A DNA stretch of 64,000 nt. Source: Janthinobacterium sp. CG3. GTDB lineage: Bacteria > Pseudomonadota > Gammaproteobacteria > Burkholderiales > Burkholderiaceae_D. The stretch spans positions 2,048,702 through 2,112,701 of the forward strand of contig NZ_KB467824.1 of assembly GCF_000344615.1 (NCBI RefSeq). The letters are read 5' to 3'. This document shows, piece after piece, positions 1 through 13,294 of this stretch; the stretch's first letter is position 1; every line of letters begins with the position of its first letter. Under the pieces are notes generated by a model, which had not been told where the DNA came from, did no database searches, and worked only from the letters and a program-made list of their open reading frames with translations. A program made the position numbers and the translations under genes.

Positions 1-1375
<1,375 letters not shown>

Positions 1376-1379
<4 letters not shown>

Positions 1380-3610
1380 GCCGCCCCCCCCGTCTGCGGC
1401 CGCGCCAGCCTGAACGGCCCGCGCCGCAACAGTTCCAGGGCCTGCTCGTTGGACACCGGTTCGCTGAAATAGTGCCCCTGCAATTCGTCGCAGCCGTGGG
1501 CGATCAGGAACTCCATCTGCGCCGCCGTCTCGACCCCCTCGGCGATGACGGTCAGGCGCAGCACGTGCGCCAGCGTGATGATGGCCAGCACGATGGCCGC
1601 GTCGCCGGCGTCGGTGGCGATGTCGCGCACGAAGGAGGCGTCGATTTTCAGTTTGTCGATCGGCAGGCGCTTCAGGTAGGCCAGCGAGGAATGGCCGGTG
1701 CCGAAGTCGTCGATGGCGATCGTTATGCCCAGCGCGTGGATCTGGCGCAGCGTCTGCACCGCCAGCGCCGGGTTGCCCATGACGGCGCTTTCGGTCAGCT
1801 CGAGCTCGAGCATCGACGGCGCGATGCCGGCGCCGCGCACCACGGCGGCGATGTCGCGCGCCACCGTGTCGCGGCGCAATTGCAGCGCCGACACGTTGAC
1901 GGCGATCGGCACGCCGCCCAAGCCCAGGGCGCCCCAGCGCCGCAGCTGCGCCGCCGCCTCGCGTATCGCCCAGGCGCCGATCACCTCGATGCGCCCGGTT
2001 TCCTCGGCGACCGGGATGAACACGGCCGGCGGGATCGCCCGGCCGTCGGCCTGCGGCCAGCGCATCAACGCCTCGAAGCCGCAGATGTCGCCGCTGGCCG
2101 CGCACACCTTGGGCTGGTAGTGCAGCACGAACTCGCCGGCGCCGACGGCGCGCTGCAGCGCGCAGCTGAGCTCGAGCTTGCGGCTGGCCGCCTCGTGCAT
2201 GCGCGGGGTGAAGAAGGAAAAGCGCGCGCCGCCCTCCTGTTTGGCATGGTACATCGCGGTGTCGGCGTTGCGCAGCAGCGTCGCCGCTTGCTGGCCGTCG
2301 TCGGGGAAGACGGCGATGCCGACGCTGGGCGTGACGCGCAAATGGCGGCCTTCGATCTGGCAGGCGGCGGAGACGGCGGCGAGGATCTTGTCGGCCACCA
2401 GCGCCGCGTCCTCGACGTCGTGCATGCCCACCAGCAGCACCACGAACTCGTCGCCGCCCAGGCGGGCCACGGTGTCGCCGTCGCGCACGCAGGTGCCGAG
2501 CCGCTCGGCGACGTCCTGCAGCAGCCGGTCGCCGGCGGCGTGGCCGAGCGAGTCGTTGATCTCCTTGAAATGGTCGAGGTCGATGAACAGCACCGCCACC
2601 GTGGCGTGCTGGCGCTCCCCCTGGGCGGTGGCCTGGCGCATGCGGTCCTCCAGCAACAGACGGTTGGGCAAACCCGTCAGGGCGTCGTGGAACGACTGGT
2701 GCAACACGTAGGCCTCCATTTCCTTGCGCTCGGTGATGTCGCGCGACACCATCACCACCTGCGTCACGGCGCCCGAGGGCGCGCGGACCAGGTTCGTGGC
2801 CGACTCCAGGTAGCGGCCGGTACGGCCCAGCACCCGGTACTGCAGGCGCCGGTGGGCGTCGCCGGCGACCAGCTGCGCCAGCGCCGCGCGCACGCGCTCG
2901 CGGTCGTCGGCATGGACGATGCCGGCGTAGTTGCCGCCGAGCTCAATCGCGGCGCCGAATTCATCGACATAACTGGGGCTGGCGTACAACCAGGCGCCGG
3001 CGCTGTCGAGCAGGGCCACGTAGTCGCCGGCGTGCTGGACGATCAGGCGCTCGGCGTCGGCGCAACGCTCGGGGCCGCCGGCGGCGCCCCCGGCGGCCGC
3101 GCCCGGCGGCGGCTGGCTGCGCGCCAGATCGATCAAGCCCTGCACCTTCGCCTTGAGCACCTCGGGCGGCACCGGCATGAACAAGTAGTCGGCGGCGCCC
3201 AGGTCATAGCCCTTGGTGCGGTCGAGGTCGGTGGCGCGGTGCGAAGTCAGGAAGATGATCGGCGTGCATTGCGAGCGCGGCCGCAGGCGGATCAGCCGCG
3301 CCGTCTCGAAGCCGTCAAGGCCGGCCATCTTGACGTCGAGCACGATGGCGACGAAGTCCTGGTGGAGCAGCCGCATCAGGGCCTGCTCGCCGGAGGCGGC
3401 GCAGACAATCTCCGCGTCGAGGTCGGTCAAGATGGCGCGCAGCGCAAACAAGGTGCCCGGGTCGTCGTTGACGAGCAGGACGCTGACCTCGTCGCGGCGC
3501 GCCGGGCCGGCGCCGGGATCGCCCTCGGTAGCGGTCGCGGCGGCGGGGGCGGCGGCGGTTTCGGCGCGGGTAGGGGTACCGGTTTCGGTACGGGTGTCGG
3601 AGGGATCCAT
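1376..3610 (-). CDS. Response regulator with PAS, GGDEF and EAL domains (c-di-GMP turnover)
   Basis: 744 residues. A receiver domain (about 42-160) has the acidic pair D49/D50, phosphoacceptor D92 ([10 protein letters not shown]) and T122. The conserved lysine position is methionine (LFMPVPPE, M145). A PAS sensor domain follows (about 185-297). The GGDEF domain (about 305-468) has an intact GGDEF at 385-389 and an RxxD product-inhibition site at 376-379. The EAL domain (about 478-735) keeps FEAL (512-515), [16 protein letters not shown] and EGVET, so both cyclase and phosphodiesterase activities look possible. Such proteins make or break the second messenger cyclic di-GMP, which governs motility and biofilm. 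The stop codon overlaps the start of the HAMP-array gene by four bases. No signal peptide or membrane helix is seen. Confidence 0.92.
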
Positions 3611-4244
3611 TAGGCTCGTTCCGCAGTGTCAATTACGCCGAAGCCAACCCAGGGACCCTGTCCTCTTCGCGCGAAAACAGTCCCTGCATATTTCGTTCAC
3701 CGATGCCGCGCGGACTCGTCGCCGCACTGCGGATCGATCTGTCTGTAGGTTGGACGGCGGGTTCATCGTCTAGTGTTACTAGGCCTGATTCGTGCGACTA
3801 AATCTTAACCCACTTGCCCGCGGCACGCCGCACCATTGCCCGGCGCCGGCCGCCAAACATACTCGTCCGCGGCCGCGCCGGGCGCTCACCGGCATGAGCC
3901 GTTTGCGCGCCGCCGCGTGCCCGCCCCGGCCTTTGCGCTTGCTGGAAACCGGCCAGTGTCCGCGCGACGGCACGCTGGCCGCGCGCGCAATGCCAGACTA
4001 TTGCCCTGCGCCGGCGGCAACGGCCTCATCCTCAAGCGAGCTCGGGATTTCCAGAACAAGCCGGTTCATCCGGGCCGGCGCAAGCGATGGAAAACGACGT
4101 TATCCGCGCCAGCCCAATTGAGTATATCGAAGCCGTCGCCTGGCCCAGCGCGACACGGCGCCCGCAACGCGATCCGGTCGGCACAAGGCGTGGGACAGCG
4201 CGGGCGGGAAAGCATTTCCGCGCCGCCCGCGGCATCCGCTACCG
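3611..4244. other. Intergenic region without a supported gene
   Basis: About 630 bases between the GGDEF-EAL gene and the exported-protein gene. The open frames here are Arg/Ala/Pro-rich with no recognisable domain, no matching RBS and no homology-like motifs. A small palindrome, CTAGT-GTT-ACTAG, lies at 3770-3782, 160 bases upstream of the GGDEF-EAL start, and could be part of its promoter. Nothing else stands out. Confidence 0.5.
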
Positions 4245-9432: not shown

Positions 9433-10107
9433 TTAGGCGGCGCTCAAGGCCGCTTTGACCATGTCGTCGATTTCGCCGGTGATGTTCGACAGCACCCCCG
9501 CCACGACGGCGAATTCCCGGCCGGCGTGGCCGGCCCGGGCGGCGACGATGCGGGCGTTGAAGGCCACCATCTTGGCCTGCTTGGCGATCGTCTCGATGTC
9601 GGTAATGACGCCGCGCAACTGCTTTTTCATCAGCAGCGCGTGGCGCTTGGACTGCTCCTCGTAGATCGTGGTGATTTGGTTCAGCACGGCCAGGATGGGC
9701 GTCGTCATGCACACCAGTTCGGCCACCAGCCCGGCGCAGTCGCGCTTGCCTTGCTCGACGGCGAACAGCGTACGCTCGGCCAGCGCGATGAAGCCGAGGA
9801 TCTTGCGGTCGCCCCCGAGGCTGCCGAAGTAGGCGTCCTGCAGCTCCGGGCAAAAAATACCGGGCAGCTTGCTGTCGCCGTTGACCAGCGCGATGTGGGC
9901 GGTACGAAACAGGCCCAGCGCCTCGCGCGCCACCGCCGCCGCGGCGGCGTCGCCGTGCAGGACCAGCAGCGTGTACAGCACCAGCCGCTGCGAGGTGAAG
10001 CGGCGCCGCCCGGACAGGTTGATCAGCGCGCCGAATACTTCGCCCGACAGCGGCACGTCCACGTCGTGCGCCTTGCCGGCCATTTTGATCGGTTCCGTCA
10101 TCAGCAT
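9433..10107 (-). CDS. Small soluble protein with a methyl-accepting-chemotaxis-like C-terminus
   Basis: 224 residues from the ATG at 10107, with AAGGAG six bases upstream; a TTG two codons earlier is less likely. There is no signal peptide or membrane helix. The last 60 residues, with AKQAKMVAFNARIVAARAGHAG and REFAVVAGVLSNITGEID, match the hairpin tip of MCP signalling domains (compare [25 protein letters not shown]). The two long coiled-coil arms are missing, and the usual Glu-Ala-Ala-Arg is Val-Ala-Ala-Arg. The N-terminal 150 residues are helical and not recognised. It sits between nasS and cobA, 19 bases from the latter, so a role in nitrate sensing rather than motility is suggested. It could also be a stray chemotaxis adaptor. 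Confidence 0.75.
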   Translation of the reverse strand: MLMTEPIKMAGKAHDVDVPLSGEVFGALINLSGRRRFTSQRLVLYTLLVLHGDAAAAAVAREALGLFRTAHIALVNGDSKLPGIFCPELQDAYFGSLGGDRKILGFIALAERTLFAVEQGKRDCAGLVAELVCMTTPILAVLNQITTIYEEQSKRHALLMKKQLRGVITDIETIAKQAKMVAFNARIVAARAGHAGREFAVVAGVLSNITGEIDDMVKAALSAA

Positions 10108-10149
10108 CGTCAACTCCTTCTTTGCTTGTGTATCGATTTTAAGCTTCGG

Positions 10150-10199
10150 TAGGTCGGATTAGCGCAACGCGCAATCCCGTGCCGGCCAACCCGACCGAC
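10150..10199. repeat. REP-like palindromic element overlapping the 3' end of nasS
   Basis: GTAGGTCGGATTAGCG... followed by CAACCCGACC, the same family as the copies at 11543-11574, 49544-49658 and 56667-56694. The nasS stop codon (10159-10161) and its last dozen codons lie inside the element. Confidence 0.7.
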
Positions 10200-11385
10200 G
10201 AACATCACGCTTCTCGTAGCGGATCTCGAACGAGGCGGCGTAGGCCGCCGGGTCGCTGCCGTCCCATACCTTGCCGTCGAGCAGCGTCGAGCTGCGCATC
10301 GTGCCGCTTGGCAGCGCGGTGCCGGCCAGCGCCGCCGCCTCCCGGTACAGCGCGACCTGGTTGACCGCCGTCGCCACGCCCAGGTAGTCCGGCTCGTCCT
10401 TGAGCAGGCCCCAGCGGCGGTGCTGCGTCATGAACCACATGCCGTCCGACAGATACGGGAAGTTGACGGCGCCCTCGCGGTGGAACTTCAGGCTGCGCGG
10501 GTCTTCCCAGCTCTTGCCCAGGCCGTTCTGGTAATGCCCGAGGATGCGCGGCGCGATCAACGCCGGGTCGGTGTTGAGGTATTCGGCGGCGCTGATGACC
10601 TCGACCATTTTCCGCTTGTTGGCGGCCGAGGCGTCGATCCACTTGCCGGCGTCGAGCACGGCGGCGATCAGCGCGCGGCAGGTGTTCGGGTTCTGTTCGA
10701 CGAACGCGCGCGTGGCGCCCAGCACCTTGCCCGGATGGTCGGGCCAGATCTGCTGGGTGGTCGCGGCGGTGACGCCGACGCCGTCGACGATGGCCTTGTG
10801 GCCCCACGGTTCGCCGGCGCAGAAGCCGTCCATGTGGCCGGCGCGCAGGTTCGCCACCATCTGCGGCGGCGGCATGGTGATCACCTGGGCGTCGCGGAAG
10901 GGGTCGATGCCGTGCGCCGCCAGCCAGTAATACAACCACATCGCGTGGGTGCCGGTCGGGAAGGTCTGGGCGAAGGTGTAGGAGCGCGGCCGCGCGCGCA
11001 TCAGCGCCGCCAGCGAGGCGCCGTCGACGGCGCCCTCGCCTGCCAGCTTGCTCGACAGCGTGATCGCCTGGCCGTTGTGGTTCAGGTTCATCAGCACCGC
11101 CATGTCGCGCCGCAAGCCGCCCACGCCCAGTTGCACGCCGTAGACCATGCCGTACAGCGCGTGCGCCGCGTCCAGTTCGCCGTTGCACAGCTTGTCGCGC
11201 ACGCCGGCCCACGACGCTTCCTTGCGCAGCTCGATCTGGATGCCGTACTTGCGGTCGAAGCCGAGCACCGCCGCCATCACCAGCGAGGCGCAATCGGTCA
11301 GCGGCAAAAAGCCGATCCTGACCGTGTCCTTCTCCGGCTTGTCCGACCCCGCCACCCAGGCCGCTGCGCTCGCTTGTTCTGACAT
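10159..11385 (-). CDS. nasS: Cytoplasmic nitrate-sensor NasS-like protein (NrtA/CmpA family)
   Basis: 408 residues from the ATG at 11385, which has a strong AAGGAGCGGT just before it. Family features include VRIGFLPLTDCASLVMA, AHALYGMVYGVQLG, MNLNHNGQAITLS and MVANLRAGHMDGFCAGEPWG. These belong to the nitrate/bicarbonate binding proteins NrtA/NasF/NasS. The absence of any signal peptide favours the cytosolic sensor NasS, which in other bacteria binds the antiterminator NasT until nitrate or nitrite releases it. nasT lies upstream on the same strand. The C-terminal tail (RRSGWPARDCALR) is encoded by a REP-like repeat and is probably not native. The gene heads an operon with the MCP-like protein and cobA. 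Confidence 0.88.
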   Translation of the reverse strand: MSEQASAAAWVAGSDKPEKDTVRIGFLPLTDCASLVMAAVLGFDRKYGIQIELRKEASWAGVRDKLCNGELDAAHALYGMVYGVQLGVGGLRRDMAVLMNLNHNGQAITLSSKLAGEGAVDGASLAALMRARPRSYTFAQTFPTGTHAMWLYYWLAAHGIDPFRDAQVITMPPPQMVANLRAGHMDGFCAGEPWGHKAIVDGVGVTAATTQQIWPDHPGKVLGATRAFVEQNPNTCRALIAAVLDAGKWIDASAANKRKMVEVISAAEYLNTDPALIAPRILGHYQNGLGKSWEDPRSLKFHREGAVNFPYLSDGMWFMTQHRRWGLLKDEPDYLGVATAVNQVALYREAAALAGTALPSGTMRSSTLLDGKVWDGSDPAAYAASFEIRYEKRDVRRSGWPARDCALR

Positions 11386-11410: not shown

Positions 11411-11455
11411 AAAAAGCGTCTCTCCGGCACGAATCGTTCATGCTTGAAAGACGCC
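11411..11455 (-). terminator. Intrinsic terminator (attenuator) in front of nasS
   Basis: In the minus-strand RNA, GCGUCUUUC pairs with GGAGAGACGC (9 bp), then after a 2x2 internal loop GCAUGAA pairs with UUCGUGC (7 bp, one G-U) around a CGA loop, followed by UUUUU (11415-11411). It ends 26 bases before the nasS ATG. Its 5' arm (11446-11454) is shared with ANTAR hairpin P2, so the two folds exclude each other. Confidence 0.8.
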
Positions 11456-11495
11456 TTTGTCTTGGACGGTGGCCACCGCCATTGGCCGCCACCGT
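11448..11495 (-). promoter_or_regulatory. ANTAR-type two-hairpin antitermination element (NasT target)
   Basis: In the minus-strand RNA, hairpin P1 (11466-11495) has the stem ACGGUGGC/GCCACCGU, one G-G mismatch, GCC/GGU, and hexaloop AAUGGC. Hairpin P2 (11448-11463) has the stem AAGAC/GUCUU and hexaloop AAAGGC. Both loops have A at position 1 and G at position 4, the established signature recognised by ANTAR-domain antiterminators, and they are separated by two bases. P2 overlaps the 5' arm of the terminator. Confidence 0.75.
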
Positions 11496-11542
11496 TAGTT
11501 CATATTCAGCAAGGAGCGTGCCAACCGCGGCAACGGTGGGAA

Positions 11543-11665: not shown

Positions 11666-12319
11666 TCAGCCCAGCAAGTCCTCGACGTCGAGGATGCGCT
11701 GGGCGATCTCGGCCAGCTTCAGGTTCTTGTTCATCGCCATGCTGCGCAGTTTCTGGTAGGCCTGGTCCTCGGACAGCTGGTGGTGCGCCATCAGCAAGCC
11801 CTTGGCGCGCTCGATCACTTTGCGCTCGGCCAGCTTGTGCTTGGTGTCGGACAGCTCGGCGAGCAGCTTTTGCTCCTGCTTGAAGCGCGCCATCGCCACG
11901 TTCAGTACCGGCTTGATGCGCTCGGCCTGCAGGCCGGCGACGATGTAGGCCGAGACCCCGGCGGCCATCGCCGCGTCCATGCTGGAGGTGGTCTCGTCCT
12001 CTGTAAACAGGACGATCGGGCGGCGCTCGTCGCGGGTGGCGACGACGATGTGTTCGAGCACGTCGCGCGCGTCCGACTCGGCGTCAACGATGATCAGGTC
12101 GGGTTGCAGCTGGGCGATGCGCTCGGGTAGATACATGTCCGCCGGCAACGAGGCGACGATGTCGTAACCCGATTCGAGCAGGCCGATGCGCAGCAAATTG
12201 CCGCGCCGCGCCTGCGCCCCAAGCGCGCCGTCGCGCTCGGCCTCGGGGTCGATGATGGTATTGACGACAACGATGCGCAGGTTGCGCACGGGCGGGGTCA
12301 ACGTTCTTTTGGACGTCAT
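11666..12319 (-). CDS. nasT: NasT-like response regulator with RNA-binding ANTAR domain
   Basis: 217 residues from the ATG at 12319; the frame stays open further upstream but loses coding character. A receiver-like domain (about 13-135, LRIVVVNTIIDPEAERD, LIIVDAESDARD, VLFTEDE, AYIVAGLQ) is followed by a coiled linker and a C-terminal ANTAR three-helix domain (about 160-215, ERKVIERAKGLLMAHHQLSEDQAY, LRSMAMNKNLKLAEIAQ). ANTAR proteins bind paired hexaloop hairpins in nascent mRNA and prevent termination. NasT does this for nitrate/nitrite assimilation operons and is held inactive by NasS. A matching leader lies directly downstream at 11411-11495. The pair NasT-NasS and its target are thus contiguous. 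Confidence 0.93.
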   Translation of the reverse strand: MTSKRTLTPPVRNLRIVVVNTIIDPEAERDGALGAQARRGNLLRIGLLESGYDIVASLPADMYLPERIAQLQPDLIIVDAESDARDVLEHIVVATRDERRPIVLFTEDETTSSMDAAMAAGVSAYIVAGLQAERIKPVLNVAMARFKQEQKLLAELSDTKHKLAERKVIERAKGLLMAHHQLSEDQAYQKLRSMAMNKNLKLAEIAQRILDVEDLLG

Positions 12320-12393: not shown

Positions 12394-13161
12394 CTAACCT
12401 GCCTTCAGCGTGAACGGGCGGGTGTCGGGCGCGTGCCGCAAGGCCTCGAACGCGGCCGGCTCCCACGGCCGCACCGCCAGCAGCAGGCTGGTGCCGTAGC
12501 GGGCGTCGGCCGGCGCGTCGGCGCACTCCTGGTGCAGCTCGGTGAACTCGCGCACCAGCTTTTGCAGGCGCTGCTGGAAGCGCAGGTTGGCCGCCGGCGT
12601 CAGCATCGCGTGCTGGAAGCGCAGTTGCTCGCCGGGCTGGTCGAAGCGCCCGTGCAGGAAGTCGTTCTGGATGCGGTCTTGGAAGAAGCGCTGGATCGGC
12701 CCGTCCGGCAACCAGGCGAAGTCGCGCGCGATGCGCAGCTTGACGCGGTTCTCTGGCATCAGGTGGATCAGGCCAAGCCGGTCCAGTTGCAGCAGGTGGG
12801 CGGTGCACTGCGCCGGCGTCAGCCGGTAGGTGGCGACGATCTGCGCCGCCGTCCAGTGGTTCAGCACGCACACCGCCGTCAGCACGCGGCCCGGGTCGGC
12901 CACCAGCTCGGCCTCCTGCGCCTCGGTTAGCCGGTGCAACTCGGCCTGCGCCTTCTCGGCCGCCTGCACCACCTCGTACAGCTCCATCCGCAGCAGCCCG
13001 CAGATCGCCTCCACCGTTTGCAGGCTGAAGTTTTGCTGCGAAAACTGACGCTTGACGCTCGCCTCGCTCAAGCCAAGGTGGGCGGCGACGCCGGCGTAGG
13101 TGACGCCCCCGCCCTTCAGCAAACGCTTCAGGGTGGCGATCAGGTCATGGGTCTGGGACAT
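12394..13161 (-). CDS. Helix-turn-helix (XRE-like) transcriptional regulator
   Basis: 255 residues from the ATG at 13161. An N-terminal XRE-type HTH (about 3-58, with GVTYAGVAAHLGLSEASVKR) is followed by a coiled segment and a second winged-helix-like region (about 95-155, AAQIVATYRLTPAQCTAHLLQLDRLGLI). This suggests two DNA-binding or dimerisation modules. The C-terminal 100 residues (rich in Phe/Gln, FQDRIQNDFLHGRFDQPGEQLRFQHAM) resemble an all-helical ligand or dimerisation domain found in many beta-proteobacterial regulators of this size. It is monocistronic, 74 bases upstream of nasT on the same strand. Its targets are unknown. Confidence 0.82.
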   Translation of the reverse strand: MSQTHDLIATLKRLLKGGGVTYAGVAAHLGLSEASVKRQFSQQNFSLQTVEAICGLLRMELYEVVQAAEKAQAELHRLTEAQEAELVADPGRVLTAVCVLNHWTAAQIVATYRLTPAQCTAHLLQLDRLGLIHLMPENRVKLRIARDFAWLPDGPIQRFFQDRIQNDFLHGRFDQPGEQLRFQHAMLTPAANLRFQQRLQKLVREFTELHQECADAPADARYGTSLLLAVRPWEPAAFEALRHAPDTRPFTLKAG

Positions 13162-13294
13162 GGTCAAGTATCGAAAATCAATACCAGTGAGCTTATACCA
13201 TGCACCAAACAACGACAAGGGTCGGCTGCCACGGCCGCGCGGCCGCGGCGACTGCCCTACCGCTGCCGCAAGGGAGGCGGGAAGCTGCGCGACA

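Follow-up and report, generated by a model that had tools for sequence, protein, structure and literature searches.

A NasT-type ANTAR leader in front of a signal-less NrtA-like gene of Janthinobacterium suggests a plausible feedback on the antiterminator NasT

The window analysed here, a stretch of 64,000 nucleotides from Janthinobacterium sp. CG3, carries a whole ANTAR-type leader on the minus strand between nasT and a nasS-like gene, as confirmed by re-reading of the letters and coordinates. On the sequence evidence, the NasT-type ANTAR leader is genuine, and its location is unusual and specific to the lineage. Our preferred reading, to which we give a probability of roughly 0.72, is that the leader, started from a sigma-54 promoter, would respond to NasT, that the signal-less, NrtA-derived protein encoded behind it would inhibit NasT, and that the leader would act both as a thermostat and as a means of supplying cobA. 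The type of switch is already known; the novelty lies in how the parts are arranged and in where the sensor probably came from. The features are as follows.

11666..12319, minus strand: nasT, 217 aa from the ATG at 12319, receiver-like and ANTAR domains (PF03861, 8.5e-22)
11646-11630, minus strand: dyad CGCACA-N5-GGTGCG, a candidate NtrC site or else the nasT terminator (CTTTTTG follows; terminator-like match)
11523-11509, minus strand: candidate sigma-54 promoter TGGCACGCTCCTTGC (-24/-12) by fit to the consensus, predicted start at about 11497
11495-11466, minus strand: P1 hairpin, ACGGUGGCGGCC-AAUGGC-GGUGGCCACCGU, hexaloop AAUGGC at 11483-11478 (A1, G4), -21.7 kcal/mol
11465-11464, minus strand: two-base linker CC, read directly
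11463-11448, minus strand: P2 hairpin (antiterminator), AAGAC-AAAGGC-GUCUU, hexaloop AAAGGC (A1, G4), -3.2 kcal/mol alone
11458-11412, minus strand: intrinsic terminator stem, its 5' arm formed by the P2 loop and the P2 3' arm, -26.4 kcal/mol
11415-11411, minus strand: UUUUU tract of the terminator, read directly
11395-11390, minus strand: AAGGAG, read directly
11385, minus strand: ATG of the nasS-like gene, read directly
10159..11385, minus strand: nasS-like gene, 408 aa, PF13379 (NMT1_2) 3.5e-98
9433..10113, minus strand: gene of a 226-aa PilJ-like/MCP-signal protein in the operon of the nasS-like gene, PF13675 and PF00015
8643..9413, minus strand: cobA/sumT, uroporphyrinogen-III C-methyltransferase, NF004790 and TIGR01469

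The initial annotation had described two hairpins with the hexaloops AAUGGC and AAAGGC (A1 and G4 in both) joined by a two-base linker, and had placed the second over the 5' arm of a terminator with a five-U tract. Both descriptions were recovered on re-reading, the hairpins at 11495-11448, the terminator at 11458-11412 and UUUUU at 11415-11411. The leader thus shows two marks of an ANTAR target, namely two hairpins of at least 3 bp with A1/G4 hexaloops and a P2 (11463-11448) that overlaps the terminator 5' arm. The P1 fold contains a G-G mismatch three pairs below the loop. A 131-base stretch folded to -59.1 kcal/mol, whereas 200 shuffles averaged -39.85 and none of them folded as well (z -5.45); the 75 bases of the Rfam match alone gave a weaker signal (z -1.98; 9 of 200 shuffles as good). 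Forcing P2 in the 93-base leader costs about 15 kcal/mol relative to the terminator fold, a preference that fits a switch which is off without protein. The linker of 2 bases falls short of the EutV working range of 5-12, and cutting the eutP linker to 3 bases impaired induction (PMC3369931); the loop-to-loop distance of 19 bases is usual in related leaders.

The earlier call of a full ANTAR leader beside a NasT gene is supported. RF03032 (narK RNA) matched 11448-11522 on the minus strand at 50.9 bits, above its gathering score of 43.2 (E = 1.3e-6 in the 64-kb window). Among 145 family genomes, the model exceeded its threshold only in the window's own and matched 13 others below it. RF00625 (P11), which we take to be the NalA leader of P. 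aeruginosa, matched 11415-11535 including the terminator, with 26.5 bits and thus below its threshold of 70. RF03032 pairs P1 only, and its consensus ACGACAAAGACGUCGC, in the unpaired 3' part, holds the ANTAR P2 hexaloop. The first 15 consensus letters of RF03032, GGCaCAgcucUUGCU, resemble a sigma-54 element, as does UUGGCACAagcaCUGC of P11, so that both Rfam families seem to include promoter DNA.

Covariation was analysed among relatives. A leader rule applied to 152 loci gave 91 with a leader, 77 of them distinct; 58 distinct leaders had 16-20 bases between the loops, and 56 were aligned (L055 and L137 were left out). The compensatory changes that the initial annotation had proposed to look for were found across these 56 leaders, clearly in P1 and, in P2, confined to the outer two pairs. 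In the 54 distinct rows, both-sided changes occurred in 5 of 8 P1 pairs and 2 of 5 P2 pairs, and the covariation score was 0.314, compared with 0.181 ± 0.013 for shuffled and 0.065-0.106 for slid alignments. The count of covarying pairs did not rise above shuffles (7 vs. 6.4; 242 of 500 shuffles reached 7), and the covarying cells and the covariation score were reached by 0 of 500. The three inner P2 pairs are invariant, which makes covariation uninformative for them; moreover, since A1/G4 loops and three or more inner pairs were conditions for picking the leaders, the outer pairs alone provide an independent test. The same holds for R1, a model trained on the preselected leaders (A1/G4 loops, stems of at least 3 bp) with the window included: the A1/G4 and inner-pair invariance and the window's score of 57.2 bits with R1, which contains the window, are partly a matter of construction. 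R1 also gave a weak match (12.9 bits, E 0.055) between nasR and nrtA of Klebsiella, the site of the known nasF leader. A chance structure was rejected on the Rfam match, the folding z-score and the covariation.

The sigma-54-type promoter before P1 was absent from the initial annotation. The letters at 11523-11509 fit the -24/-12 consensus; transcription would then begin near 11497, two bases ahead of P1, and P1 would lie at the very 5' end of the RNA. Of the 77 distinct leaders, 75 have a sigma-54-like element ahead of the P1 loop (the exceptions are L112 and L126), at a distance of 36-44 bases in 15 leaders and 55-70 bases in 60. The dyad upstream could be an NtrC site or the nasT terminator, and relatives carry TGCACC-N5-GGTGC in the same gap.

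A third hairpin was observed on reading between the sigma-54 promoter and P1 in nrtA leaders (L050, L054, L095, L158 and others) and also in narK leaders. All 60 distinct leaders with a long promoter-P1 gap have a further 5' hairpin of at least 4 bp, where 43.1 would be expected, and it bears an A1/G4 hexaloop in 37 of the 60, compared with 1.9 expected from shuffles, the sequences being related and not independent in both counts. The short gap of the window leader leaves no room for this hairpin. One EutV dimer is reported to contact one hexaloop at a time (PMC8934654), so the third loop could be an extra recruitment site.

The protein encoded upstream of the leader is recognised as NasT by its ANTAR domain, its receiver-like N-terminus and the position of its gene beside that of a nitrate-binding protein. 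Its best solved relatives are EutV (6wsh/6ww6), 1s8n, NasR (4akk) and AmiR (1qo0); the N-terminus aligns with EutV, 1s8n and CheY-like chains and gave no Pfam receiver match. The genome search found two ANTAR genes, the other one being of response-regulator type. PMC8934654 names Arg142, Lys143, Lys147, Lys149, Glu160, Tyr164 and Met172 of EutV as RNA contacts, and six of these seven residues are identical in NasT, Lys147 being replaced by Arg, when the residue numbers are mapped by hand. Given NasT upstream and the contact residues kept, the proposal that NasT reads the leader as an antiterminator is well supported at the level of sequence. Just upstream of nasT lies a 274-aa ORF (12394-13218) with a helix-turn-helix-like start and without a Pfam match.

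The nasS-like protein aligns over its full length with the nitrate-binding Synechocystis NrtA 2g29 (1.9e-76). Its N-terminus, MSEQASAAAWVAGSDKPE, corresponds to a mature end without the Tat signal and keeps a relic, AWVAGSDKPE. Burkholderiales relatives that are 63-73% identical are mostly NrtA proteins; they carry a Tat-like signal that ends in AWAAGSDKPE or a similar sequence, and nrtB and nrtC lie behind their genes. In a tree of 66 rows, the window protein and its Janthinobacterium-group relatives stand inside the NrtA-type branch, far from the NasS of Rhizobium, Paracoccus and Phyllobacterium, so that orthology to characterised alpha-proteobacterial NasS was rejected; the NasS proteins of Pseudomonas and Azotobacter were outside this comparison. 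The earlier name nasS therefore stands in so far as a signal-less NrtA-like gene lies beside nasT, but not as membership of the characterised NasS group. The NasS of Paracoccus is reported to retain the NrtA nitrate ligands, to have no signal and to release NasT on nitrate (PMC3795266). The window protein has the NrtA-like fold, the missing signal and the gene position beside nasT, and this combination with the Paracoccus logic makes "works like NasS" a reasonable description, whereas "NasS by descent" is not. By this analogy, we infer that the NasS-like protein would be the inhibitor of NasT.

Loss of the export signal, from NrtA to the NasS-like form, is most likely the direction of change, judging from the relic kept in the sequence. 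A hydropathy rule called 40 of 142 proteins signal-less (41 including L038, which the rule miscalls as signal-bearing and which was set as signal-less by eye for the tree). Among the 40, nrtB adjoins only L111 (at a contig edge) and L128 (borderline); six Tat loci (L002, L005, L006, L007, L009 and L010) have fewer than 180 bases downstream and are uninformative on nrtB. The signal-less forms stand outside a 38-row Tat clade, an order compatible with one loss with a regain, several losses or long-branch pull. L067 is the reverse exception, with a Tat signal and without nrtB; this in-between locus (615-3667) reads nasT, leader, Tat-signal NrtA and, directly behind, cobA, and it has a second R1 match at 229-275. 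An exported form of the window protein starting from the in-frame GTG at 11430 was rejected because the start would lie inside the terminator and the stretch is too weakly hydrophobic by the rule used.

CobA starts the synthesis of siroheme, the cofactor of NirB, and its gene in the nasS-like operon makes this operon partly an ordinary structural target. The window operon genes that were read include neither nrtB nor nrtC. A comparable placement of cobA is that in the nirBD-PA1779-cobA operon of P. aeruginosa. About 9 kb to the left of the window, R1 found a second leader (G000:C1:2039834-2039882; 20.9 bits, E 0.0097), which on reading has a sigma-54 element, three hairpins with A1/G4 hexaloops and a terminator; narK, nirB, nirD, a stretch 34% like NirB and nasA follow directly. 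The initial annotation had called the window leader unlike the usual target. This is right in that it precedes a nasS-like gene, but homologous leaders mostly precede Tat-signal nrtA, the second leader stands before narK-nirB-nirD-nasA, and cobA is part of the window operon. The genome's nrtABC lies elsewhere (L154:7566-10621) behind a sigma-54 element; the 900 bases before it contain no P2-like sequence, and NasT was not found within 19.9 kb around it. Several other loci without an ANTAR gene look like L154.

The content of the operon admits another explanation, in which NasT acts through the leader to switch cobA and the other operon genes, the NasS-like protein does not inhibit NasT, the partner of NasT is elsewhere, for example the PilJ-like sensor, and the feedback loop does not exist. 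The placement of the siroheme gene cobA would agree with it. So would the Tat-NrtA loci: they have NasT and the leader, and the signal-less copy is absent in that place, so NasT must have another partner there, and the PilJ-like protein could be the partner in the window too. Related loci often, though not always, have a relative of this protein in their nitrate operon, and a fusion of ANTAR and PilJ is encoded on a Comamonadaceae plasmid (L214:3533-4882); as an observation in its own right, the PilJ-like protein at 9433-10113 is a possible cytoplasmic nitrate sensor. Against this, of the 29 Janthinobacterium-group loci read, 25 have NasT in the stretch before the signal-less gene, mostly with no PilJ-like gene found (NasT was not found in the upstream stretch of the other four, L025, L026, L029 and L034), and Paracoccus NasS, NrtA-like, signal-less and releasing NasT on nitrate, follows the same logic (PMC3795266). 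We consider this alternative unlikely.

The arrangement of a leader before nasS is uncommon. Strong R1 matches at this place were found in 6 of 40 genus genomes (G000, G145, G146, G160, G161 and G168), and the leader of G160 (L020; 39.4 bits) is degenerate, with the P2 stem broken on reading. Of 30 loci read (L015-L044), 6 have the leader, 1 encodes a Tat-NrtA (L021) and 23 (L022-L044) are leaderless. Thus, of the 29 Janthinobacterium-group loci read in which the protein is signal-less, 23 have nasT and nasS with no leader in between, which means that the feedback would be dispensable. The sigma-54 element is kept in 19 of the 23 leaderless loci, most of which also have an NtrC-like site, and its distance to the aligned start is mostly 83-95 bases (in two loci 54-55), compared with 134-158 in loci with the leader. 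Much of the genus has thus probably lost the leader that stood in front of nasS. A possible history, which we put forward tentatively, is that a cytoplasmic NasT brake was re-invented from NrtA when nrtBC and the Tat signal were lost in place behind an existing NasT leader, giving an autogenous thermostat, and that many sisters later deleted the leader and kept the promoter.

The absence of the leader from most sister loci read and its decay in G160 (L020) suggest weak selection on it in the genus, as would be expected if it were a plain attenuator whose terminator just lowers NasS relative to NasT, with inherited hairpins and the reading by NasT lost. The window leader, however, is intact in both hexaloops, both stems, spacing and terminator overlap, and it scores 57.2 bits with R1, which contains the window, and 50.9 bits with the independent Rfam model, which renders a plain attenuator improbable.

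Outside the genus, the same layout occurs in L013 and L110 (Rugamonas brunnea), and the signal-less relatives L211 and L212 have the order nasT, nasS-like gene, leader, narK. The leader was found in 47 of 59 loci with an upstream ANTAR gene and in 4 of 16 without one (Fisher p 8.5e-5, with kinship ignored; 75 of 80 loci were used, five being too short upstream). Seven of the 12 loci with an ANTAR gene that were classed as leaderless show a P2-like hexaloop under a looser rule, indicating that the leader rule misses some leaders; of the others, L123, L129 and L138 have the promoter and lack a P2-like sequence, and both are missing from L096 and L143. Among the 13 loci without an ANTAR gene (12 leaderless loci and the genome's own nrtABC), 10 were re-read: a sigma-54 element is present in all 10, and a P2-like sequence is absent within 900 bases in 9. 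In Variovorax and Polaromonas (L136:4292-5569 and L151:4306-5547), a NasR-type protein (NIT-ANTAR) replaces NasT before the same leader and nrtA.

For the NasT-responsive thermostat that we prefer, the following course is proposed. The sigma-54 promoter, probably driven by NtrC under nitrogen limitation, would start the mRNA at about 11497, and the first ~85 bases would form the ANTAR leader. When free NasT is absent, the strong terminator would form and the nasS-pilJ-cobA operon would be largely silent. When nitrate or nitrite is sensed, NasT would be freed and would hold P2 through the P1 and P2 hexaloops; as P2 and the terminator 5' arm use the same bases, transcription would then continue. 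The first gene product would be a cytoplasmic nitrate-binding protein, most likely NrtA-derived, that inhibits NasT, and a scarcity of inhibitor would lead to more free NasT, more read-through and more inhibitor. Read-through would also supply cobA for the siroheme nitrite reductase. With nitrate present, free NasT would open both leaders, yielding transport and reduction genes, cobA and a nitrate-loaded, harmless NasS-like protein; with falling nitrate, the enlarged pool of brake would shut NasT off quickly; and with nitrate absent, a shortage of brake would free NasT, which would restore the brake. The negative feedback on NasT is plausible and resembles the case of AmiC in amiECBRS.

An action in trans might be added, with the terminated RNA (about 86 nt) sequestering free NasT as EutX/rli55 does EutV. 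P1 would remain folded in this RNA, and PMC8934654 describes how a small RNA sequesters EutV; on the other hand, a single hexaloop hairpin would be left outside the terminator, and the stable short RNA is hypothetical, so that we hold this addition to be very improbable.

Several known systems can be set beside the proposed NasT-responsive leader. NasT/NasR leaders of nasA, nasF and nirB operons, narK RNA and P11 share two A1/G4 hexaloop hairpins, the overlap of P2 with the terminator and a nearby NasT or NasR gene, and the narK RNA and P11 consensuses have sigma-54-like letters before P1 as in the window; whereas NasT/NasR leaders precede reductase or transporter operons, the window leader precedes a nasS-like gene and cobA. 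In amiECBRS of Pseudomonas (AmiR-AmiC), as in the reading proposed for the window, an ANTAR leader stands before an operon that includes the gene for the inhibitor of the ANTAR protein, here amiC; C and R in the operon name stand for amiC and amiR. There the enzyme gene comes before those of the inhibitor and the regulator, whereas in the window nasT precedes the leader and the inhibitor-like gene is the first one behind it. The leader of amiECBRS is read by AmiR (PMC3369936), so the proposed feedback, in which the leader controls the inhibitor of the ANTAR protein that reads it, has a precedent in amiC. The NasS-NasT pairs of Paracoccus, Rhizobium and Phyllobacterium likewise have nasT beside the gene of a signal-less nitrate-binding protein; unlike the window, nasT and nasS overlap or are 8 bases apart, a gap of 286-358 bases follows nasS, and NasS falls outside the NrtA branch. 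R1 found no leader in four loci of these types (L202, L203, L204 and L207), so leaders there, if present, differ. The nasT-leader-nrtABC operons of Burkholderiales share the promoter type, the leader and nasT, with pilJ and cobA further down in L095, and differ from the window in that nrtA has a Tat signal and is followed by nrtB and nrtC; L067 is intermediate.

NasT or NasR is a likely partner that binds narK RNA, an Rfam family in whose consensus promoter letters of the sigma-54 type and an ANTAR leader seem to be combined; in addition, many leaders of the group have a third hairpin with a hexaloop. Among the best matches, titles and abstract openings state no such points on narK RNA, RF03032/RF00625, three-hairpin ANTAR leaders or nasST autoregulation. 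Within one family, the loci form a natural series of promoter, leader and transporter; promoter, leader and sensor; and promoter and sensor without leader, which allows a test of how an antiterminator stays balanced with its inhibitor. For Paracoccus, PMC5424462 discusses a higher expression of nasT than of nasS, by which some NasT stays free when nitrate is absent. The thermostat, if true, would remove such an imbalance of NasT over NasS, and the leader may thus let the cell balance the regulator NasT and its brake.
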